Shown in pieces: positions 8,344 through 54,458 of a DNA stretch of 64,000 bases (its first letter is position 1; each line of letters starts with the position of its first letter). Under the pieces are notes generated by a model, which had not been told where the DNA came from, did no database searches, and worked only from the letters and a program-made list of their open reading frames with translations. Source of the DNA: Methanospirillum stamsii. Its GTDB lineage: Archaea > Halobacteriota > Methanomicrobia > Methanomicrobiales > Methanospirillaceae. A program made the position numbers and the translations under genes. Location of the stretch: positions 1 through 64,000 of the forward strand of contig NZ_QGMZ01000028.1 in the NCBI RefSeq assembly GCF_003173335.1, given 5' to 3'.

Positions 8344-8711
8344 TCCTTTGTACCCGAAAAGTGATTCAGGTGCCTTATATTAATACAAGGGTTAGGGAGA
8401 ACCTTCTCTTTATCATATTCTCTGGTTTTACTTGGTACCCATGAGAAATTATGTATAGAGATGTAATTCCCTCAATAACACTCCATCCAGTTTTCCATCA
8501 TATCGAGTAAGTCTGTTCGTACAAAAGGGAACCGGAATAATTTTCCCTGGAATTAAAAAGCTTTCAAATATACTCCCGGATTTCTAATAATTATTTGCCA
8601 TGCAGCAGCGTGATGCATATCATTATGATCTCACCTCTTGAAATGGTTCAACATCTGAAATATCAGAATTTTTACTTCTTTTTTTCAGATTGGACGAACC
8701 CACACATTATT
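8344..8711. other. Intergenic region before the papain-type protease
   Basis: Contains the short upstream extension of the SBP_bac_3 relic and an AT-rich stretch near 8570-8600 (TTTCTAATAATTATTTGCC) that could be a promoter for the protease gene. The protease frame is open from 8595, but its early residues lack signal-peptide character. Otherwise nothing seen. Confidence 0.35.
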
Positions 8712-10694
8712 ATGGTGAGAAGCATGCTTGAAAAAATAGGTGAACTACAAAAAATTACGAGGTTATCCCTGGTTATAACCATTGTTTTTTTGTTCGTGAC
8801 GTTTTGTGTATCAGGAGAAACCTTAGGGAAAGTTCCGTCTTCGATGATTGTAATGAGAAATCAGACTGGAACTGTGCAGGAAGTAAATACTCCCTTTGCA
8901 CAGTTTTCATTTCCTCCCGGAGTAACATCAATTACACCGTCCATACCTGATGTTTCCGTCAGGAAATTGGAAGATCAAAAAAATATTGATTTTGATAAAT
9001 CCCGGGCTGTTGCCCTTCCAAAAGACCGGATAATACTCACTCCACCAAAAAAAGTGGATTACACGCCGTATCTATCATTTATCCGGACACAGGATGGTAA
9101 TGGGGGATGTTTAGGCTTTACCCTTATGCACTTGATGGATATCCTCAAAGAGATGGAACATCCCTATACTCCGGATAAATCATTTGCATACATGCATTTA
9201 CGACAGGAACAGTTACGGGATAAAGAAGGTGTTCCGGATACAAAAATGTCTGAAGAACTTATTACGAAATATGGAGTGGCGTCAGAAGTGGTGTATCCAT
9301 CTGATTACTCCGGATGCACAAAAAACAGTGAGGGTATATATGTCACTGATAACATGCCTCCCTTGAGTGATACTGCCAAAAACGAAGCAACATACTATAA
9401 AATTAAATCACAGGAATTTACCAGCCCGGTCGATGTGGATACATTAAAAACCCTTCTAAATGAATATGGCCCGGTTGGAGGTCAGGGAGGGAGTGATGTC
9501 TGGGTAAACCATAGTATGTTAATTGTCGGATATGATGATGCAACAGAGAATTTTAAAGTATTGAACAGCTGGGGAGATTATTGGAAGTATGGAGGGGGCA
9601 TTGGAGACGGATTTTTCTTCTGGCCATACAGCAGGGTTTCAGAGATAAGTATGCTAAAATCATTAGTAAATGAACCCTCTGATAGGTCCGGGGGAGATTA
9701 TGCATATACGGCCCGGATAGGAGTCAACGCCCCGTATTCAAGAAATTCCCTGGTAATTAGTATCGGGGTTGAAGGTGAAACGCCATTAACTATTTGGAAT
9801 GCCCCAAATAAAATCGGACCATGGCCGGATTATAACAGTGACCTGACACTTGATGTATACCTTCCTTCCTATGCAAAATCTCACTGGCCTCCGGGAGATG
9901 AGTGGTACGTGAAGGTGAGTAATACCGGTGCAGTCAATGCAGTGGTTGACGAGATAGTATTTGCAAAACTGAACAAAGATTTACTATGTAAAACGGTTGG
10001 AAGATTTACCACTGATACCTACAAACCATCCCCCGGAACACTTCCGGTCACCATCCCGCCAAAATCTGAAAAGATGATATATCTTTCAGACCCGGGAGAC
10101 TCTCAAAAACCAGAACTCGATTATGGAGAAATATCCGTGGAAAGATCGCTCAACCTTCTTTCAGGAACGGTGACTGGCCTGGATTCCTTATCTAATACCG
10201 CCAAAGCAGCAGAAGTTGTACAGATTAATGAGAACAATCTGAAAAATTATGTTGTGGATACAGATTTGAAGATTCCGGACACCGGTGAAGATGTAGATGA
10301 CACGGGTAAGGTACTTGCAAAAAGGGATATCATTGAACCGGGAGATTATACTATCACTGATCAGTCCAACAAAAATCTTATCAGATCGGTTACCATATAC
10401 CGTCTTGTCCCTGAAGTATGTGTGAATATGCCAGATAAGTGGGATGTTATCGGGACTGCAGTCATCGAAGGGGATAATACCTTTTCTTTCACTATTCCTC
10501 AGCAATACATCCTGGATACCCTGGCGGTTGCCTATTCTGATTCAGGAACCGTGGTAGTTTCTTCTGAACCTATCCCATCACCGTCAAAAACTGCCCTGAC
10601 TAAAGAGCCATTAACTGAAAAAGCAATAGATTTTTCAGTGGATCCAATTGCTGAAAGAAACAAGGTTTTACCGCTCCGGGTAAATCCCATATGA
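8712..10694 (+). CDS. Secreted C1A (papain-like) cysteine protease
   Basis: The frame is open from 8595; ATG 8712 or 8724 places a signal peptide (LSLVITIVFLFVTFCVSG) correctly, giving about 660 aa. Numbering from 8595, the catalytic Cys is C172 in QDGNGGCLGF, the His is H306 in WVNHSMLIVGYDD, and the Asn is N324 in KVLNSWGDYW, the full C1A triad order. The usual Trp after the Cys is Leu-Gly here. The C-terminal 300 residues look like beta-rich surface domains with no clear name. It probably digests external protein or processes surface proteins. Confidence 0.75.
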   Translation: MVRSMLEKIGELQKITRLSLVITIVFLFVTFCVSGETLGKVPSSMIVMRNQTGTVQEVNTPFAQFSFPPGVTSITPSIPDVSVRKLEDQKNIDFDKSRAVALPKDRIILTPPKKVDYTPYLSFIRTQDGNGGCLGFTLMHLMDILKEMEHPYTPDKSFAYMHLRQEQLRDKEGVPDTKMSEELITKYGVASEVVYPSDYSGCTKNSEGIYVTDNMPPLSDTAKNEATYYKIKSQEFTSPVDVDTLKTLLNEYGPVGGQGGSDVWVNHSMLIVGYDDATENFKVLNSWGDYWKYGGGIGDGFFFWPYSRVSEISMLKSLVNEPSDRSGGDYAYTARIGVNAPYSRNSLVISIGVEGETPLTIWNAPNKIGPWPDYNSDLTLDVYLPSYAKSHWPPGDEWYVKVSNTGAVNAVVDEIVFAKLNKDLLCKTVGRFTTDTYKPSPGTLPVTIPPKSEKMIYLSDPGDSQKPELDYGEISVERSLNLLSGTVTGLDSLSNTAKAAEVVQINENNLKNYVVDTDLKIPDTGEDVDDTGKVLAKRDIIEPGDYTITDQSNKNLIRSVTIYRLVPEVCVNMPDKWDVIGTAVIEGDNTFSFTIPQQYILDTLAVAYSDSGTVVVSSEPIPSPSKTALTKEPLTEKAIDFSVDPIAERNKVLPLRVNPI

Positions 10695-12303: not shown

Positions 12304-12903
12304 ATGAACTGTTTTAGTATTATGAAACTCTTTACAATAATTTTGCTGGTTTTTCTGGTTGGATTCTGTAACGCAGATGAAACTCCCATGTTTCTCGCAG
12401 AGGTACAAGGGGGCTCGGGCACCATTGTAAGTGAAGAGGATGGCAGATTTGCTGTAACTATTGAAAATTATGGCCGGTATTTCAACACTACCGATGGAAA
12501 TTCCACCTTCTCGATGCCGGTAGAACACCTTTCTACAGTGTTATGGCCTTCTTATGCTGCGATAACATTTGCAGATGAGAACGGAGAGTCAGTATCCCTG
12601 GTAACCGTTGAAAACCTCTCTCTATTAGAGGAAGAAAACACACTGAAACTCCAGGTCACACCAGTTTCTTTCTATGAAGGTGAACTGCTCACCGCATTTG
12701 CAGAAGATATTGATGGACTGGATTCCATTCAGAATCAGTCCTTTGAGAGCACGAAGGTGTATTTTGAAATCACAAGGCAGATACCAGAAAATGAGCAGTT
12801 ATGTTGTCCGGGAAATCATTGGTTAGAAACTGACCGGTGTTGTCAAAATGAAGGGCAGGGAAATATTCTGTGCTATTGGGATCGGTTTGTTCCGTGTTCG
12901 TAA
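12304..12903 (+). CDS. Exported protein with Cys-rich tail, paralogue of 19760-20311
   Basis: A 199-aa protein with an N-terminal signal (FTIILLVFLVGFCNA) and a beta-rich mature part. It shares with the minus-strand protein at 19760-20311 the start DETP, the segment LEEENTLKLQVTPVSFYEGE (LEEDKTLEFDLIPLEFQEGS there), and a Cys-rich end (LCCPGNHW...CC...C). Tail cysteines probably form disulfides. No known family recognised. A TATA-like ACATATACC lies about 28 nt before the start, suggesting a leaderless transcript. Confidence 0.65.
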   Translation: MNCFSIMKLFTIILLVFLVGFCNADETPMFLAEVQGGSGTIVSEEDGRFAVTIENYGRYFNTTDGNSTFSMPVEHLSTVLWPSYAAITFADENGESVSLVTVENLSLLEEENTLKLQVTPVSFYEGELLTAFAEDIDGLDSIQNQSFESTKVYFEITRQIPENEQLCCPGNHWLETDRCCQNEGQGNILCYWDRFVPCS

Positions 12904-13020: not shown

Positions 13021-15168
13021 ATGTGGAATAATCGAATACAACCGAAAAGAATTTTCGCTATCTTCCTGTTCTTTTTTTTCCTTCTTTTTGCATGTACTAT
13101 TGCTGTTGCAGATGAACCGGTATATATCGGGGTTCTTCTTCCGTTAAGCGGCCCGGACGGGCAGTCATACTATGATGCATTAACCCTGGCCCGTGACCAG
13201 ATTAACGCCGGGGGTGGCATATTCGGAAGACCGGTTGAATACGTCCTTCGTGATACCAGAACCGGCGATCTCATGACCTATGCCAACAGTCTGGCAAGGG
13301 ATAAGCGGGTGAGTGTAGTAATCGGCCCGTACACCTCTGCAGATCTCTTTTCGATAGCGGACCTCTTTATCCGGTATCAGAAAGTCCTCATCACTCCGTC
13401 TGCATCATCAGACGAGATATATCGTGCATATGCCAAAAATTGGTATGTCTGGCGGACTATTGGAAATGATGGTGATGTCGTTCCGGTCGTCATGGATCAC
13501 ATCCGGAAAAATGAAGGGCATAACGTTGCTCTTTTAAGTGTAAACAGCTCGTATGGGAAGACGTTTTACGACTGGATGCCCTACTGGGCAATAGAGAAAG
13601 GGATTGATATAACCGGAGCACAAGAGTTCTCATCAGCGGATGAGATCCCTGACGCCGTCAGACAGTTAACAGAGACTGCACCTGATTACCTGGTTTTTGT
13701 CTATTCCGGATCAGTTAGTGAGATAGTAACCGTCATTGACACACTGGAAGAAGACAACTCATCAGTCCACCCATACTTTATCTATCCAAACATCGATGAA
13801 GAGGGCAGGATATCAGAACGGGCAGATCCTGACCTTCTCTTGTTTCTCCTCAGTTCAGGGCTTTGGAGGATAACGAACTCCAGCACCATGACAACCCCGC
13901 TCCCTGACAATACGCTTATCCTGATGAATCCAGAGTGGGATGTGGGTTTTTCAGAAGAATTTTCTGCTATTTCCGGGAATAACCAGGCAGGATATATCCC
14001 GGAAGTGTATGATGCAGCCCTTGTTTCTGCCATGGTAATGGCACAATTTATTGCAAATCCTGAAAAGTCTCCTGGAAATGCAGCGATGAGTCTGCTTACC
14101 GAAGCAGATGGGGACCCTGTACCCAGAACTCCGAATGGATTTCAGGAGGCTATACAACGGATACAAAAAGGAGATGCTCCCATCCTGACCGGTGCAACCG
14201 GTCCGCTCACCTTTAAATCAGATGGGCTGGATCGGCAGGTGACAAATCATGCAACGTATAAGATTGAGGACGGCAGGATTGTTTCAGATCCGGTCTTATT
14301 AACCAGAACCGGAAAGGAGTTAGCCAATCCCCGAACACCCGGGAGTGTTGGAAATTCCACCATAATTCCGGCGGATGACTACCCGGCAGGGGAATTCTGG
14401 GCAGTTATAGGAGCACTTTCAAAAGACTGGAATAATTACCGCCACCAGGCTGATGCCCTGACGATCTACAACCTGCTTAAGGACCGGGGAGTTTCAGATG
14501 ACCGGATTGTCCTTCTTGTTTATGATGACATCCCGACTGACAAGAGAAATACCAAGCCCGGTGAGGTATACCACATTCCGGATGAGAAGGAGGTTCGGAA
14601 AGAGGCGTATCCTGATTTTGTCGGTGAAGAGGTTACAAAAGATCTACTCCCGGCGATTCTTTCCGGAACCGGTGCAGAATCAGAATCCGGTATGCTCCGG
14701 TCTGATGAGAACTCAACCGTCCTTCTCTACCTTACATCACATGGATCCCCTGGTGGAGACCTTCTCGTTGGTGAAGGAAATGAAACCATCACCCCGGCCG
14801 GAATTGCCGATCTTATCGGGGATATGTACAAACAGAAACGGTTTGGACGGATGCTGCTTGTTCTTGAGTCCTGTTTCAGCGGGGCGGTTGCAGATGCGAT
14901 AACTACTCCAAAAACCATTGTCATGACCGCTTCTTGTGCAGATGAGACATCAAAAGCCGCTAGCTATGATCCTGAGTTATCTGTATGGCTCTCTGACGAA
15001 TTCACGAAAGAACTGGTATCACAGTTACGAAATGCAGACAGATCCCTCACCCTGCGGGAACTCTACCAGCAGGTATACTATAACGTCAGGTCATCACACC
15101 CTGGAATCTCAACCGGGAATGAACTCCTTGACCTGCCGGCTGTGAGCTTCTTTGGAGGCGTAGAATGA
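13021..15168 (+). CDS. Fusion of a Peripla_BP_6 ligand-binding domain with a C13 legumain-like peptidase
   Basis: A 715-aa exported protein: signal peptide 1-30, a Leu/Ile/Val-type periplasmic binding domain about 33-430 (EPVYIGVLLPLSGPDGQSYY, ALTLARDQINAGGGIFGRPV), then a caspase-fold C13 domain from about 455 to the end. The catalytic dyad is visible: H574 in LLYLTSHGSPGG and C618 in LVLESCFSGAV. Legumain-type peptidases cleave after Asn or Asp; whether that holds here is unknown. The stop overlaps the next binding-protein gene as ATGA. No permease or ABC ATPase is near, so it is not an ordinary transporter component. A ligand-gated surface protease is a reasonable inference. Confidence 0.8.
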   Translation: MWNNRIQPKRIFAIFLFFFFLLFACTIAVADEPVYIGVLLPLSGPDGQSYYDALTLARDQINAGGGIFGRPVEYVLRDTRTGDLMTYANSLARDKRVSVVIGPYTSADLFSIADLFIRYQKVLITPSASSDEIYRAYAKNWYVWRTIGNDGDVVPVVMDHIRKNEGHNVALLSVNSSYGKTFYDWMPYWAIEKGIDITGAQEFSSADEIPDAVRQLTETAPDYLVFVYSGSVSEIVTVIDTLEEDNSSVHPYFIYPNIDEEGRISERADPDLLLFLLSSGLWRITNSSTMTTPLPDNTLILMNPEWDVGFSEEFSAISGNNQAGYIPEVYDAALVSAMVMAQFIANPEKSPGNAAMSLLTEADGDPVPRTPNGFQEAIQRIQKGDAPILTGATGPLTFKSDGLDRQVTNHATYKIEDGRIVSDPVLLTRTGKELANPRTPGSVGNSTIIPADDYPAGEFWAVIGALSKDWNNYRHQADALTIYNLLKDRGVSDDRIVLLVYDDIPTDKRNTKPGEVYHIPDEKEVRKEAYPDFVGEEVTKDLLPAILSGTGAESESGMLRSDENSTVLLYLTSHGSPGGDLLVGEGNETITPAGIADLIGDMYKQKRFGRMLLVLESCFSGAVADAITTPKTIVMTASCADETSKAASYDPELSVWLSDEFTKELVSQLRNADRSLTLRELYQQVYYNVRSSHPGISTGNELLDLPAVSFFGGVE

Positions 15169-16385
15169 AAATACAACGAGTAAATTCCCTTCCTGAAAGA
15201 GAGGCACCAGTACACCGGAACGGTCTTATGAATAAAAATTCTCATCCGGCCTGGATACGAACCGGGATTCTCATCGCCCTGCTTATGGTCATAGGAGTTC
15301 TCATAACCCCGTGTGCAGCAGAGAATACAACGATACAGGTTGGTGTTATCCTGCCACTGAGTGGGGCCTATGAAGTCATTGGGAATGAACTTCTTCAGGG
15401 AATTCTCCTTGCTGCAGATGAGATTGAGCAGGAAGGTGAAGCTCTCGGATACCACCTTTCTCTTCGCACAGCTGATGATAGTGGAGATCCAGAGACCGCC
15501 CTTTCGCTGTATAAGGAGATGCAGGCCGAAGGAGTCCCGGTGATCATCGGTTCATATACGACGATGCTGACCCTTCCGATGGCACAAGAGTCAAAGAACC
15601 CGTCATCCCCGGTCCTGGTCTCTCCCCGGGCGAATGGTGAAGATCTCTATGGAATCTCCCCACGGTTTTTCCAGGTAAATCCTCCCATCTTCTCCTTAAG
15701 CAGGTTCATTGCCGACTGGCTGAAGTACTCATCAGACCGGACATCTGTCATTTATATCGATGATGCATATGGCAGTTCTGTCCTTACGCACATCAAAAAC
15801 GGGCTTAAGCAGAATGATGTCCAGCTTATCGGTGAATTCCCGCTTACCGATGATCCCGATTACCGCCTCCTGACAGAGCGTGTTCTTGATACCGCTCCTG
15901 ATGCGGTTGTTATTGTCGTCTACGATAACCGGCAGATCCCCTTGATAAGTAACCTTTCACAGGCCGGTTTTAAGGGACAGGTGATAGTGACGGAATCCGC
16001 TCTCATGAGCAACCTGGAGGAAGAGATACCAGATGACCTTGAAACATTTGCCTTGTTTACCATCCTGGCATATACAAACCTGGTACCTGGTGAACATGCA
16101 GATCGGTTTTTGTCTTCTTACCAGGACCGGTTCGGAGAAGATCCCTCAAGAACTCCTGCAGGATACGGGTATGACTCCCTGATGGTGATTTCCGAGGCAT
16201 TACGCACGATTCCATGCACAAACGGAACGGTTACACCGGATATGATACAGGAAGGATTAAACCGGTCAAACTATTACGGAGTGACTGGTCCAAAGGTGTT
16301 TGACTCTCATAATGCAGCAGGAACGGCAATGGACCGGTGGGGATTTGTTAATGGAAGACTGGAACTGATGGCTATCACTCTGTAA
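15165..16385 (+). CDS. Peripla_BP_6 (Leu/Ile/Val-type) extracellular binding protein
   Basis: A 406-aa protein. The N-terminus has a 30-residue charged lead and then a long hydrophobic segment (GILIALLMVIGVLITPCAAE), so it is either a signal peptide or a membrane anchor. The mature part begins TTIQVGVILPLSGAYEVIG, the hallmark of type I binding proteins, with VSPRANG and GYGYDSLMVISEAL later. The ATG overlaps the stop of the upstream C13 fusion gene, so the two are co-translated and probably work together. No transporter subunits are adjacent. Confidence 0.8.
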   Translation: MKIQRVNSLPEREAPVHRNGLMNKNSHPAWIRTGILIALLMVIGVLITPCAAENTTIQVGVILPLSGAYEVIGNELLQGILLAADEIEQEGEALGYHLSLRTADDSGDPETALSLYKEMQAEGVPVIIGSYTTMLTLPMAQESKNPSSPVLVSPRANGEDLYGISPRFFQVNPPIFSLSRFIADWLKYSSDRTSVIYIDDAYGSSVLTHIKNGLKQNDVQLIGEFPLTDDPDYRLLTERVLDTAPDAVVIVVYDNRQIPLISNLSQAGFKGQVIVTESALMSNLEEEIPDDLETFALFTILAYTNLVPGEHADRFLSSYQDRFGEDPSRTPAGYGYDSLMVISEALRTIPCTNGTVTPDMIQEGLNRSNYYGVTGPKVFDSHNAAGTAMDRWGFVNGRLELMAITL

Positions 16386-16551: not shown

Positions 16552-18852
16552 ATGTCTGGAATATTACAGAAAAAAGTAATCATCTGGCTCATTTTTTGCT
16601 TTGCCTGTCTCTCCTTTTCATCCTGTCTGGCAGATGATGCCATATCTTTCAAAAATGCCACCGGAATACGAAATTTTCTGCCTGACCCTCCCTATACAGA
16701 AGGAAGTATCCTGGTGCAGGCAGCAAATGGTCCGGACGGTATGGTCAGTTCCCTGTCTGATATCCATGCAGCAATCGGTGCATCGGTTGAGCGGGATTAT
16801 GGAACCGTTGGGATCCCCGGCTTATCTCTTGTCAAGCTTCCGGAAGGGATGCTGGTTCCTGATGCAATCCGTTATTATTCCGGTAATCCGGCTGTTTTGT
16901 ATGCAGAACCGGATTATTATGTTATAGCATTGAAAAATCCTGATGATCCGGAGTTCTGGCGGCAATGGGGACTTTCCAACACCGGATCCCTGTTTAAGGA
17001 GAATACCACTCCCGGAATACCCGGAGCAGACATCGGTGCCCTGGCTGGATGGGAAAAAGCCACAACCACGAACGGGACTATCATCGCCGTTCTTGACACC
17101 GGAGCAGATATTTATCATCCTGACCTAGTGGATAATATCTGGAGTTATTCAGGGTCCGGGACTCTTCTGCATGGAATAAATATCCTGGAAGATATGCCTG
17201 TTGAACCCTGGGATGATGACGGTCACGGAACTCATTGTGCCGGGATTATTGGTATGATTGGCAACAACGGACTCGGTGGGGCAGGGGTAGCCTGGAATAC
17301 CACCATCATGCCCATAAAAGTCCTGGATTACCGCGGGTCCGGAAAATTATCAGATCTTGCATTTGGTATGGCCTATGCAACACTGTACAATGCATCGGTC
17401 ATCAGTTGTTCGTTTGGAACAGAATACAGCCGGACAATGGAGGATATCATCCGTCAGTCCCCGGCACTTTTTGTCTGTTCAGCCGGAAACTATGTCGCAG
17501 ATTTGAACCGGATTTCCCAGTATCCGGCTTGTTATAACTTTAGCAACGTGATTGCCATTGCTGCAACAGATGCACAGGACAATCTGTCATGGTTCTCAAA
17601 TTATGGTAACCGGACGGTGCATGTCGGTGCTCCGGGCTCGGATATCTACAGCACTATTCCATCTGCATACTCCTACACCACAATCTTTGAAGATCCTGCA
17701 TTTTCAGAGCAGAACTTTACATTATCCGGTAACTGGATCCATGTTCCCGGTACTCTTCCTGGAGAACCCGTATCATTACGCGGAGTTCTTTCAGAACAAC
17801 CTGATAATTCTACCTTTGTCATTGAACTGAACAAGTCTGTTTATATTCCTGATGATATGGGTGAAATACCTAATCTGGTCTGGGATATAAAGGGGAATTT
17901 TAACGGATACCAGATAATCGAGTACTCCTTTGATGGTGAGCAATGGATTCCCCTTTGGGATTTTGATACTGAATTTAGGGAAGATGACTGGAGACAACTG
18001 TTTATTCCGCTCAATTCTGTATATCCGGGAACATCTGTCCGTTTCAGATATACTTATTCCCTGTTTGAAGGTGATATCAAATCTGATTTTTCCATCCGGG
18101 ATATCAGGATTGGATACCGTGGACTGGTAATAAAACCGGAATATACTTACATGGATGGGACATCAATGGCAGCCCCCATGGTCTCCGGTATCGCTGGTTT
18201 AATCAAGGGGAAAAAACCGGATCTTACCGCCGGAGAGATAAAACAGGTCATCATGGATACTGCTTTTCCCATTCCCTCATTACATGATAAGACTGTTACT
18301 GGTGGAAGGGTCAACCTGGAAGCTGCCCTGAAAGCATTGGATGAGCCTTCTACGATCCAGCTCTTTCCGGGCTGGAACCATGTATCAGTTCCACGGCAGC
18401 CTGCAGTGGGATATGAGACTGCACAGATATTTGCGGGTGTAAACTCATCCGGTCATTCAGTCCTCAAATATCTGAATGATACCGCAGGATACCAGACTCT
18501 CTCTATGAATGATTTGGTGGTTCCTCTTCAGGGGTACTGGATTTATTCTTCAGAGAAAACCGGGGTTCCGATTACGTTTAGTGAACCAATGACAATCCTT
18601 TCACGGGAGATTCCGGCAGGATGGTCATCGGTAGGGGGCTGGACAGAGGCTGACATATCAGCAAATGAGACCTTTCACACGTTGTCCGGTTGGTCATATG
18701 CGACCGGGTACAATGCCGGGCTTCAGCAGTATGAAGAACCGATTATCCGGGGAGGAACCAGCAACCAGAGTGATACAAGACCTGTCCTGCCATACGAAGG
18801 ATACTGGCTGTACTGTTCACAGAATGGGACATATCAGGCCGGGTTTGGATGA
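16552..18852 (+). CDS. Secreted S8 subtilase with inserted domain and C-terminal repeats
   Basis: A 766-aa protein with a signal peptide (about 1-27), an I9-like prodomain (GSILVQAANGPDG... to about 125), and a complete S8 core: D182 in AVLDTGAD, H225 in DGHGTHCAG, oxyanion N313 in CSAGN, and S538 in DGTSMAAPMVSG. About 180 residues (roughly 365-520) are inserted before the Ser motif and look like a jelly-roll domain. The tail holds two similar units starting GWNHVSVP and GWSSVGGW with GYWIY/GYWLY, probably surface-binding. A TATA-like TTTATATATTC lies about 28 nt before ATG (leaderless). Confidence 0.9.
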   Translation: MSGILQKKVIIWLIFCFACLSFSSCLADDAISFKNATGIRNFLPDPPYTEGSILVQAANGPDGMVSSLSDIHAAIGASVERDYGTVGIPGLSLVKLPEGMLVPDAIRYYSGNPAVLYAEPDYYVIALKNPDDPEFWRQWGLSNTGSLFKENTTPGIPGADIGALAGWEKATTTNGTIIAVLDTGADIYHPDLVDNIWSYSGSGTLLHGINILEDMPVEPWDDDGHGTHCAGIIGMIGNNGLGGAGVAWNTTIMPIKVLDYRGSGKLSDLAFGMAYATLYNASVISCSFGTEYSRTMEDIIRQSPALFVCSAGNYVADLNRISQYPACYNFSNVIAIAATDAQDNLSWFSNYGNRTVHVGAPGSDIYSTIPSAYSYTTIFEDPAFSEQNFTLSGNWIHVPGTLPGEPVSLRGVLSEQPDNSTFVIELNKSVYIPDDMGEIPNLVWDIKGNFNGYQIIEYSFDGEQWIPLWDFDTEFREDDWRQLFIPLNSVYPGTSVRFRYTYSLFEGDIKSDFSIRDIRIGYRGLVIKPEYTYMDGTSMAAPMVSGIAGLIKGKKPDLTAGEIKQVIMDTAFPIPSLHDKTVTGGRVNLEAALKALDEPSTIQLFPGWNHVSVPRQPAVGYETAQIFAGVNSSGHSVLKYLNDTAGYQTLSMNDLVVPLQGYWIYSSEKTGVPITFSEPMTILSREIPAGWSSVGGWTEADISANETFHTLSGWSYATGYNAGLQQYEEPIIRGGTSNQSDTRPVLPYEGYWLYCSQNGTYQAGFG

Positions 18853-19759: not shown

Positions 19760-20311
19760 TTAATACCCGCAAAGTGGTCGCATCGGGACACATTTTTTAT
19801 CCTCCACCTGCTTAAAAGTGCAGCAGTAATCAACCGGAGTATTCTCCGGTGCCGGAATGGTATATACGAAAGTAACATCTGTCTGTGTGTAAGAGCCGGG
19901 CACAATTTCCCGGATTTTGACTTGTTCTGAACCCTCCTGAAATTCTAACGGAATCAGATCAAATTCCAGGGTCTTGTCCTCTTCTAAATACCTGATATCT
20001 GTCACCCGGACTATATCTCTAATCATATCACCGTTATTATCCACAAGTCGGATGGGTCCAGTTGTGGTATTAGTGATGAGAGCATGTTGAAGGGGCACTG
20101 TGACTGACCGGGTATCATATAAGACCGTTGCATTCGGGATTACATTCTGAATTTGAATCTGGTAGGTTCCCGGATCAGGTTCTGAAATGGAAGATATATT
20201 CCCTGACACGAGAACCTGCATAACCGGTGTTTCATCACCTACAACCGAAAAGATAAGGGTGAACTGCGATAGGAGAAGAATGATCATCGCAAACCGAAGT
20301 AAACGCTTCAT
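19760..20311 (-). CDS. Exported protein with Cys-rich tail, paralogue of 12304-12903
   Basis: A 183-aa protein with signal peptide (MIILLLSQFTLIFSVVG) followed by DETPVMQVLVSG. The middle (SVTVPLQHALI, VRVTDIRYLEEDKTLEFDLI) aligns with the plus-strand protein at 12304-12903. The C-terminus carries CC and two more Cys. No family name recognised. Its promoter and leader are nearly the same as those of the 469-aa exported protein at 21718-23127, so the two are probably co-regulated. Confidence 0.65.
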   Translation of the reverse strand: MKRLLRFAMIILLLSQFTLIFSVVGDETPVMQVLVSGNISSISEPDPGTYQIQIQNVIPNATVLYDTRSVTVPLQHALITNTTTGPIRLVDNNGDMIRDIVRVTDIRYLEEDKTLEFDLIPLEFQEGSEQVKIREIVPGSYTQTDVTFVYTIPAPENTPVDYCCTFKQVEDKKCVPMRPLCGY

Positions 20312-20508: not shown

Positions 20509-21135
20509 TCATGAGACCGGATTATCCGGGGGATTCCTGAAAAATATCCCCAGGATAACAAAAGGAACAAAATATAGAATCTCAATGCCCGGGAGATCGG
20601 CAAATACCCAGAAGATTCCCAGTGCTGCCACAAAAGGGGGAACCAGACACTTTTTTAAAAGACAGGTGGTTTCAGATGGGATAAGGTCCGGGTCGAGAAG
20701 GGCCGGATGTGAACCGGCATAATACCATAAATAGGCAAGCAGTATCCCGAGGAAAAAATAATTTATTTGAAAAAAATAATCTACAAAAATGTAGTCATTT
20801 TCCCCCAAATTACTAAACGACGAAGAGAATGGGATAAGGACGATTGCCATCAGAGCAAGCATGTGAACATGAAGAAAATGATAATCATAGGTTTTCATCC
20901 GATGGAACATCTGGAAGAACAACATCCAGAACATGGCAAGAAGGATAAAAACACCTAAAAAATCAAAGATTGAAAATATGGTGTCCTCGACAAAATGTTC
21001 AATTGTAATCTGTGATGCCTGTTCATACTTGTCTGACGTTATGATGTTTCTGGCTAGAAGCGTCATCGTAAACGCGAAGATACCGTTAGTGATTCGTTCC
21101 AGGTTGACCTTATTAATGGGTTCATGAATTGCCAT
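20509..21135 (-). CDS. TMEM175 family (DUF1211) membrane protein
   Basis: A 208-aa protein with six predicted helices. The first helix, VNLERITNGIFAFTMTLLA, corresponds to the TMEM175 signature region (R...FSDGVFA.A.TLL) but with ITN in place of FSD. Prokaryotic TMEM175 proteins are tetrameric potassium channels; the changed signature makes channel activity less certain. Other recognisable parts are LLAMFWMLFFQMFH (helix 3) and the loop HALMAIVLIPFSSS-type segment around residues 90-105. Confidence 0.7.
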   Translation of the reverse strand: MAIHEPINKVNLERITNGIFAFTMTLLARNIITSDKYEQASQITIEHFVEDTIFSIFDFLGVFILLAMFWMLFFQMFHRMKTYDYHFLHVHMLALMAIVLIPFSSSFSNLGENDYIFVDYFFQINYFFLGILLAYLWYYAGSHPALLDPDLIPSETTCLLKKCLVPPFVAALGIFWVFADLPGIEILYFVPFVILGIFFRNPPDNPVS

Positions 21136-53216: not shown

Positions 53217-54458
53217 ATGAATCGATTATTAGGGTTACTATTCGTCGTGATATTACTGGTTTCTGTAGTATCAGCTGATAAACAGATTATTATCGGAGCG
53301 ATTATTGATAAAAGTGGAGATACTGCTTCGTTCGCTCCAGGAATAGAAACAACAATTGACCTTGCAGCATCAGACCTGAACGATTTTTACAAAAAACTAA
53401 ACAAAAATATTACCGTTGTTATCAAGAAAGAATTTACAAATGGTACTTCTGAAAGTGCAGCTACTGCTGCTGAAAACCTTGTTTCTGAAGGTGCCCAGTT
53501 AATCGTTGGTCCAACCACTTCAGAAGAACTATCTGGTTGTTTACCAGTCCTTACACGTGAGAAGATACTCTCAATTAATCCAACATCTTCAGTAAAACTT
53601 GCAATGCCTGAGGATCCGGTTATCAGATTATGTCCTGGAGATCTGTCACTTATCAACGCTATTGCCAGTTACAATACTGTAATTACAGGGACAATTCCGC
53701 AAAAGACTGTGGTTGTATCACGGGGTGACTTATACGGTCTTGATCTGTCTGAAAAAGTGAAGAGCATAACTCAGGTTTCAGATACAGTTATATATTCACC
53801 AGGAACACGGGATTTTACGAATACCCTTGAAGAATTAAACTCATCAGTATCATCTCTCATTGATTCGTATGGTGAAAAGAATGTATGTGTCTTTGCGATT
53901 TCCATTGATGAGATCAGTGATCTCCTGGCACAGGCATCTGAATATCCAAATTTAAGGAAGATTCAGTGGTCTGGAATGGACGGAGTAGCCCTCAATCCGA
54001 CGATCTTACTGAATGAAACTGCAGCACAATTTGCATATGACACTCAATTAGCTACTATTTCCTTTAATATGGCACAACCCGGGGGTTCTAATTACTGGCA
54101 TGTGTATGATAATATACAGGCAGAAACTGACGGACATCAGCCCTGTATCTACGAGATCCTTCCATATGATGAGGTTGTTATGGGAGCCCGCATTCTTGAG
54201 AATAATGCGTCAACACTTGAAGAGAATCTCAAATTCGCTGAAATCCTTGGCAATAATATGTATGGAGCAACCGGCTGGCTGAAAATTGATGACAATGGTG
54301 ACCGGAAGTATGGAGATTATTACTTCTATCTGCCTCAAAAGGGAGCGGATGGTACAATAAAATGGGTACCGTGTTTTGCATATCTGGATGGATTAAACAC
54401 TACCATTCCTCTCTCTGGAGTTTACAATACATTACTTGAAAAAATAATCAATAAATAA
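53217..54458 (+). CDS. Orphan Peripla_BP_6 extracellular binding protein
   Basis: 413 aa with a signal peptide (LLGLLFVVILLVSVVSA) and a type I binding fold: KQIIIGAIIDKSGDTASFAP, LAASDLNDFYKKLNKNI, SEGAQLIVGPTTSEELSG. It is more diverged than the two at 13021 and 15165. No permease or ATP-binding gene is adjacent. It may deliver a ligand to a sensor rather than a transporter (inference). AT-rich promoter region upstream; the A/G-rich GAGAGTGAG precedes ATG. Confidence 0.75.
   Translation: MNRLLGLLFVVILLVSVVSADKQIIIGAIIDKSGDTASFAPGIETTIDLAASDLNDFYKKLNKNITVVIKKEFTNGTSESAATAAENLVSEGAQLIVGPTTSEELSGCLPVLTREKILSINPTSSVKLAMPEDPVIRLCPGDLSLINAIASYNTVITGTIPQKTVVVSRGDLYGLDLSEKVKSITQVSDTVIYSPGTRDFTNTLEELNSSVSSLIDSYGEKNVCVFAISIDEISDLLAQASEYPNLRKIQWSGMDGVALNPTILLNETAAQFAYDTQLATISFNMAQPGGSNYWHVYDNIQAETDGHQPCIYEILPYDEVVMGARILENNASTLEENLKFAEILGNNMYGATGWLKIDDNGDRKYGDYYFYLPQKGADGTIKWVPCFAYLDGLNTTIPLSGVYNTLLEKIINK

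Follow-up and report, generated by a model that had tools for sequence, protein, structure and literature searches.

A LIV-type binding domain fused to a legumain-type peptidase in Methanospirillum stamsii: a possible surface-protein-processing enzyme of archaea and bacteria

Introduction

Why should a methanogenic archaeon join, in a single open reading frame (ORF), a Leu/Ile/Val-type (LIV-type) ligand-binding domain and a peptidase of the legumain type? The question is raised by a gene in a stretch of 64,000 nucleotides from M. stamsii (contig NZ_QGMZ01000028.1, positions 1 to 64,000), which is called the window below. Legumain-type enzymes of family C13 have been studied almost solely in eukaryotes, as lysosomal or vacuolar proteases, peptide ligases and the GPI-anchor transferase. 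Their occurrence in archaea has already been recorded, in lists only (PMC4357240, PMC6461988). The literature that we searched, which left most subscription journals uncovered, contains no description of a binding-protein/legumain fusion or operon.

The family described here represents C13 in a prokaryotic form that is deeply conserved, has a fixed and different architecture as well as a genetic partner, and is found in cultivable methanogens and in gut Bacteroidota. The fusion also widens the comparison set for the origin of legumain and of GPI transamidase. If the function proposed below is correct, this would be the first prokaryotic system to wire a nutrient-receptor-type domain to Asn-specific processing of surface proteins, it would provide a substrate that can be tested at a predicted cleavage site, and it would be a new place to look for asparaginyl proteases or ligases.

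The fusion gene and its domains

The ORF is preceded by GAGGAG, which gives its ATG a good ribosome-binding context. Its parts are as follows.

13021..15168 (+), PBP-legumain fusion gene, 715 aa (ORF, Pfam, PDB matches, model)
13021..13110 (+), predicted export signal or N-terminal membrane segment, aa 1-30 (hydrophobic helix at 8-30)
13117..14304 (+), type I (LIV-type) binding domain, aa 33-428 (Pfam, structural match)
14305..14385 (+), interdomain linker of low confidence, aa 429-455 (AF2 model)
14386..15165 (+), C13 (legumain-type) peptidase domain without the C-terminal AP/LSAM prodomain, aa 456-715 (Pfam, model)

The original prediction placed a LIV-type binding domain and a C13 peptidase in this one ORF and proposed a domain search as a check. 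Pfam indeed returns both families, with Peripla_BP_6 (PF13458) at aa 33-231 (E 3.6e-23) and Peptidase_C13 (PF01650) at aa 460-693 (E 2e-45, 155.8 bits against a cut-off of 22.8). The nearest PDB sequences to the peptidase are legumain (E 6e-32) and GPI transamidase (E 1.7e-31), and this is the one C13 gene in the genome. The protein ends in ...LLDLPAVSFFGGVE, its reading frame stopping where the peptidase domain ends (aa 715), and neither the sequence end nor the fold model contains a C-terminal membrane segment. Judging from its N-terminal sequence, the protein is presumably exported and anchored; a possible lipobox at C25 is poor.

It is vanishingly improbable that the fusion is an artefact of assembly or annotation or a gene in decay, since nothing favours this except that the window sits in an 89-contig assembly, and it is already refuted by a 715-codon open frame, by catalytic residues that are invariant over several phyla, and by the same fused ORF in three single-contig congeners (G514, G518 and G524) and at over 80 further loci. 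An assembly artefact had been named beforehand as grounds for abandoning the idea, and the recurrence of the fusion in finished genomes of the genus removes that concern. We regard the fusion as real with virtual certainty.

Catalytic residues and predicted structure

The residues that matter for catalysis and for the S1 pocket can be placed by comparison with legumain.

14434..14445 (+), N472-Y473-R474-H475, equivalent to legumain N42, R44 and H45 (S1 pocket), invariant in 67/67 proteins
14740..14742 (+), catalytic His574, equivalent to legumain His148, invariant in 67/67
14872..14874 (+), catalytic Cys618, equivalent to legumain Cys189, invariant in 67/67
14950..14952 (+), Ser644, equivalent to legumain S216 (S1 pocket), invariant in 67/67
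14995..14997 (+), Asp659, equivalent to legumain D231 (S1 pocket), D in 40/67 and N in 27/67

Legumain forms its S1 pocket from R44, H45, S216 and D231 (PMC4357240), and the window protein keeps all four as R474, H475, S644 and D659. N472, R474, H475, H574, C618 and S644 are invariant in all 67 aligned proteins, which come from several phyla; the same is true of the whole catalytic His-Gly pair, H574-G575. In the alignment, E616 corresponds to legumain E187. The H574/C618 dyad was thus correctly numbered from the start: it is intact and aligns with His148/Cys189 of human legumain.

An AlphaFold2 model of the fusion protein, built from the 67-sequence alignment, has a mean pLDDT of 86.7 and a pTM of 0.87. 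Structure prediction had been suggested as a further check, and the model gives a caspase-like legumain fold in the C13 domain and a LIV-type fold in the binding domain. The modelled peptidase (aa 456-715) superimposes on human legumain at 1.5-1.8 A over about 256 residues (legumain 26-288). The match to legumain 4n6o reaches Z 39.7 (rmsd 1.7 A, 257 residues), compared with Z 37.5 for the GPI transamidase subunit 8imx_K and Z 36-37 for plant ligases. Model residues 30-434 match LIV-type binding proteins at Z about 32 (LivK 3td9, Z 31.7), and lobe 2 of the binding domain carries low-confidence insertions at aa 258-305. A dyad that is not positioned for catalysis would have undone the original proposal, and the predicted fold argues against such a displacement. 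We consider it likely that the protein is an active C13 enzyme with a preference for Asn.

The resemblance to legumain (asparaginyl endopeptidase, AEP; MEROPS C13, clan CD) extends over the peptidase fold, the catalytic His and Cys and the equivalents of N42, R44, H45, S216 and D231. In contrast to legumain, whose activation is controlled by a C-terminal prodomain (PMC4357240), the fusion protein has an N-terminal type I binding domain and no C-terminal AP/LSAM prodomain; it is also prokaryotic, by prediction tethered to the membrane or surface, and encoded beside a second binding protein in one operon. The idea that the protein processes itself at a conserved Asn of the linker was considered as well and is unsupported, in that linkers across the family contain 4.7% Asn versus 4.1% elsewhere, with no enrichment.

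Distribution across prokaryotes

We sought relatives in the genomes of 84,980 species using an alignment of archaeal C13 sequences as the query, which proved effective; the same scan with a single protein as the query returned no relatives. The search found 205 relatives, and the best 80 of these 205 were taken further. They derive from Methanomicrobiales, Bacteroidota, Treponema, Myxococcota and other deltaproteobacteria, Actinomycetota, Patescibacteria and others, and nearly all of these 80 have an N-terminal binding domain and a total length of about 700 aa. A survey of archaea had been proposed earlier, and there the fusion occurs in many genera of Methanomicrobiales. Our results go beyond the original prediction in two respects, namely the wide occurrence of the architecture in bacteria and the presence of a candidate substrate (12304-12903) beside the gene.

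Among 95 loci, a set that was found with archaeal-fusion patterns and represents the best 80 of the 205 relatives, no legumain-like C13 gene came out without a binding domain. Prokaryotic legumains that stand alone may exist, given that the search was based on the archaeal fusion and the best 80 of 205 were followed. When bacterial genomes were searched separately for the family, all strong C13 matches fell in ORFs of 700-880 aa. The bacterial homologues are mostly predicted lipoproteins, and fusions of the Methanoregula type have an N-terminal membrane anchor. The relationship between eukaryotic and prokaryotic C13 sequences was not settled by a tree with long branches. A viral origin of the fusion was rejected: a scan of viral contigs contained no relative, and a viral fold library gave only weak, separate matches of binding-protein or caspase type.

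Several bacterial loci have further genes of interest. In 11 loci from Bacteroidota and Treponema (L077, L083, L090, L097, L103, L104, L106, L107, L108, L111 and L121), the fusion operon includes lipoproteins with a MACPF domain, and operons of this kind with Bmp and PBP-legumain genes in the same two groups often also encode other large lipoproteins without Pfam families. The neighbouring lipoproteins of Bacteroidota have a few conserved Asn columns, which occur among other conserved residues and are uninformative. At a myxococcal locus (L123:6843-8483, +), the fusion is overlapped by a gene for a protein with a caspase domain (C14).

The binding domain and the absence of a transport partner

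Permeases of family PF02653 are the partners of LIV- and Bmp-type binding proteins. The original prediction noted that no permease is nearby, and the statement can be strengthened, as the whole genome, which is 99.9% complete, has no PF02653 match (the control search was positive in 12 of 14 genomes). The family is also missing from five other fusion-bearing genomes, and where a genome has both the fusion and a PF02653 permease, the two lie far apart. The binding domain resembles LivJ and LivK (HAAT family) in its type I fold and in many of its pocket residue types, but unlike them it is fused to a protease and resides in a genome without a LIV permease. Ordinary transport by the fusion is unlikely because the genome lacks a LIV/Bmp-type ABC permease, and we are confident that the protein has some other purpose.

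These observations bear on a digestive function, wherein the enzyme would cut extracellular proteins at Asn to obtain amino acids and the binding domain would capture the products for uptake. Such a protease would be in keeping with the LIV-type fold, with the uptake functions that Bmp and LIV proteins normally serve, and with the secreted subtilase and ThrE-type amino acid exporter encoded close by. However, the permease is missing here and in the five other fusion genomes and is distant from the fusion elsewhere, and specificity for the single residue Asn fits processing better than digestion. We therefore consider a digestive function improbable.

Residues of the binding domain that are conserved across the family include S106, A128-S/T129, D150, Y178 and Y330-D331, and by alignment the residue types of the LIV-type amino acid pocket (S106, A128, S/T129, D150, Y178 and Y330) are largely kept. 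This retention weighs against the proposal that a ligand-free binding domain replaces the legumain prodomain as a folding or zymogen module, with the second binding protein acting as an inhibitor or chaperone, since a bare scaffold would not need these residues. The proposal can draw on the end of the fusion protein at the peptidase domain, on a pTM of 0.87 that suggests a fixed arrangement of the domains in the model, and on the finding that expression of legumain requires its C-terminal domain (PMC4357240). On balance, we give it little credence.

A different use of such domains is suggested by the rest of the genome, which has six Peripla_BP_6 stretches. At one of these (L145:5626-9568, contig G000:C56), a gene for a LIV-type binding protein is directly followed by one for a dCache/HAMP/PAS histidine kinase, and the two products likely constitute a two-component sensor pair. 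Because there is no PF02653 permease and one Peripla_BP_6 gene stands beside a dCache histidine kinase, the LIV-type binding proteins of this genome plausibly serve sensing. Within the window, an orphan Peripla_BP_6/ANF-type binding protein (53217-54458, +) is encoded between two P-type cation ATPases, without a permease.

A second binding protein as genetic partner

15165..16385 (+), second LIV-type binding protein, 406 aa (Peripla_BP_6, E 3.7e-38)

As had been predicted, the next gene encodes another binding protein and is read by overlap, its start sharing ATGA with the end of the fusion gene. Because a long leader precedes its signal peptide, an internal Met at 15228 is possibly the true start.

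To count such partners we used 87 non-redundant fusion genes and clustered their neighbours. Fifty-two of the 87 adjoin a second binding protein, mostly with overlapping reading frames, and this protein is of the Bmp/PnrA type in 50 and of the LIV type in two. The Bmp gene precedes the fusion in 37 of the 50 loci and follows it in 13. Three members of the partner group match PF02608 (Bmp/PnrA-like) with E values of 1.6e-42, 6e-12 and 2.1e-36. Loci where the LIV-type protein fills the partner slot are the window, L043 and L158. No partner gene adjoins the fusion in 35 of the 87, a group that includes contig ends as well as true loners; three loci from the same genus as the window (L159-L161) have no partner gene beside the fusion. 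The single Bmp gene of the M. stamsii genome (G000:C1, L133) sits away from the fusion.

The association extends to gene fusion. In 19 Methanomicrobiales genomes, a related binding domain is fused directly to Bmp without a C13 domain, and over the binding domain the PBP-Bmp fusion shares 52% identity with the PBP-C13 protein of Methanocalculus. Bmp/PnrA-like proteins are thus linked to the system both as the partner in 50 loci and through these 19 genomes, whereas the slot in the window holds a LIV-type protein instead. Given two operon arrangements and a gene fusion, we argue that the Venus-flytrap modules work together, and that they physically do so as a pair is probable. Binding-domain/Bmp fusions of about 740 aa are encoded at L134:6290-8548 (-) and in L162-L167, with no shared permease adjoining in the loci read.

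A candidate substrate family

12304..12903 (+), candidate substrate, a secreted protein of 199 aa with a beta-rich domain and a Cys-rich tail of 36 aa (putative role)
12790..12792 (+), codon of the invariant Asn163 of the candidate substrate (25-copy alignment)
19760..20311 (-), divergent paralogue of the candidate substrate in which a Cys-containing tail likewise follows the invariant Asn (alignment)

Each of the six Methanospirillum-type loci has a member of this secreted Cys-tailed family (about 190 aa) no more than a few kb from the fusion, with order and strand varying between loci. The six fusion genomes contain 10, 7, 1, 8, 2 and 3 copies; M. stamsii has eight more besides the two listed above, and in G517 the sole copy adjoins the fusion. 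Across 25 copies, which are 23-60% identical to the window copy, Asn163 is invariant (25/25) and is the only column flagged as such; where the alignment is ungapped, a few Gly, Leu and Cys columns are fully conserved along with it. The preceding residues are P-E, P-S, P-D, A-E and similar, and no N-X-S/T sequon recurs at this position in the 25 copies. Asn163 marks the boundary between the beta-rich domain and a hypervariable tail, which is 7-47 aa long and has 4-8 cysteines in 23 of the 25 copies, and it is predicted to lie in a loop (residues 158-172) past the last strand of the domain.

Intact copies are found in six genomes with the Methanospirillum-type fusion, and only decayed fragments with stop codons in the near-complete congeners G516 and G520, where the absence of the fusion is taken from the fusion survey rather than from a C13 search; this co-occurrence rests on six genomes with the fusion and two near-complete genomes without it, all of them related. 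An incomplete piece occurs in G522 (64% complete), and G243, which carries two fusions, has a distant homologue without the Asn. The family was not found in G286, G262 and G178, which bear fusions of the Methanoregula type or of bacteria, and the substrate idea consequently covers one clade only.

We consider it quite possible, if just short of an even call, that the Cys-tailed family is the substrate of the fusion. The invariant Asn could be structural instead, and the family could also be a disulfide-rich envelope component. A Pfam search with the candidate gave no convincing family, and no known fold stood out, the best score being Z 6.2 with unrelated proteins. Like the candidate, the sheath protein MspA is secreted, multi-copy and largely limited to Methanospirillum and close relatives. 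Methanospirillum sheaths are stabilized by disulfides, and MspA has 377 aa, one Cys and imperfect repeats (PMC6242892), unlike the candidate with its roughly 190 aa and Cys-rich tail. The identity of the two was ruled out by size and Cys content.

Proposed function and alternatives

We propose that the fusion may act as a C13 asparaginyl endopeptidase that is exported and tethered to the cell surface. Its Venus-flytrap domain at the N-terminus would form an extracellular recognition or ligand-sensing unit together with the second flytrap protein, which is the LIV-type product of 15165-16385 here and a Bmp/PnrA-type protein in most relatives. Instead of feeding an ABC importer, this unit would position or gate the peptidase. 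In Methanospirillum-type archaea, the peptidase would cut the Cys-tailed proteins after their invariant Asn, and this cut would separate the beta-rich domain from the disulfide-rich tail. As a whole, we see this scheme as evenly poised between right and wrong. Its individual elements, that is enzymatic activity, cleavage at Asn, formation of a complex, gating by ligand and the Cys-tailed substrate, are inferred from genomic and structural comparison.

Of the functions put forward in the original prediction, ligand-controlled proteolysis outside the cell fits best, in view of the missing LIV-type permease, the pairing of flytrap genes across phyla and the 19 genomes with PBP-Bmp fusions. The control by ligand is the less secure part of that claim, and we advance it only tentatively. 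GPI-transamidase-like anchoring, the other function suggested, has gained no positive support, as the C13 domain resembles legumain and GPI transamidase about equally (Z 39.7 versus 37.5) and the protein has no C-terminal membrane segment. PIG-K/Gpi8 shares with the fusion the C13 fold (8imx_K) and a luminal or extracytoplasmic location; the fusion differs from it in lacking a C-terminal membrane helix and any known GPI and in having a binding domain. A search of the genome for the transamidase partners Gaa1 and Gpi16/PIG-T gave no match, with the positive controls silent too.

C13 enzymes can also ligate, and a transpeptidase or sorting enzyme might join the new C-terminal Asn to a surface amine and thereby anchor or cross-link proteins. 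The GPI transamidase subunit and the plant ligases score little below legumain in the structural comparison, and a conserved domain followed by the invariant Asn and then by a variable tail that could be discarded is reminiscent of a sorting signal. However, the tail has no membrane helix, its conserved cysteines suggest a folded microdomain that is retained, and the enzyme is without a C-terminal membrane segment of its own. We thus think a sorting function unlikely.

A broader extension of the preferred endopeptidase scheme would be a widespread and hitherto undescribed class of extracellular two-flytrap proteolytic receptors in which the sensing of a ligand switches on the Asn-directed processing or ligation of secreted surface proteins, although we regard this as doubtful. 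The substrates would then be the Cys-rich envelope family in Methanospirillum and might be the co-encoded lipoproteins, including those with MACPF domains, in Bacteroidota and Treponema.

Other genes in the vicinity

16552..18852 (+), secreted S8 subtilase beside the pair (Pfam; a homologue also lies beside the pair in L158)

This subtilase is possibly a co-operating protease. A 699-aa secreted protein encoded at 8595-10694 (+) has no Pfam match and shows papain-like motifs by eye (GGCLGF, NHSMLIVGYDD and LNSWG). Three exported proteases of different classes, counting this by-eye assignment together with the subtilase and the C13 fusion, are thereby encoded within 10 kb. The window also has a gene for a ThrE-type amino acid exporter near the fusion and, at 20509-21135 (-), a gene for a TMEM175-like potassium channel (PF06736, E 5.9e-14).
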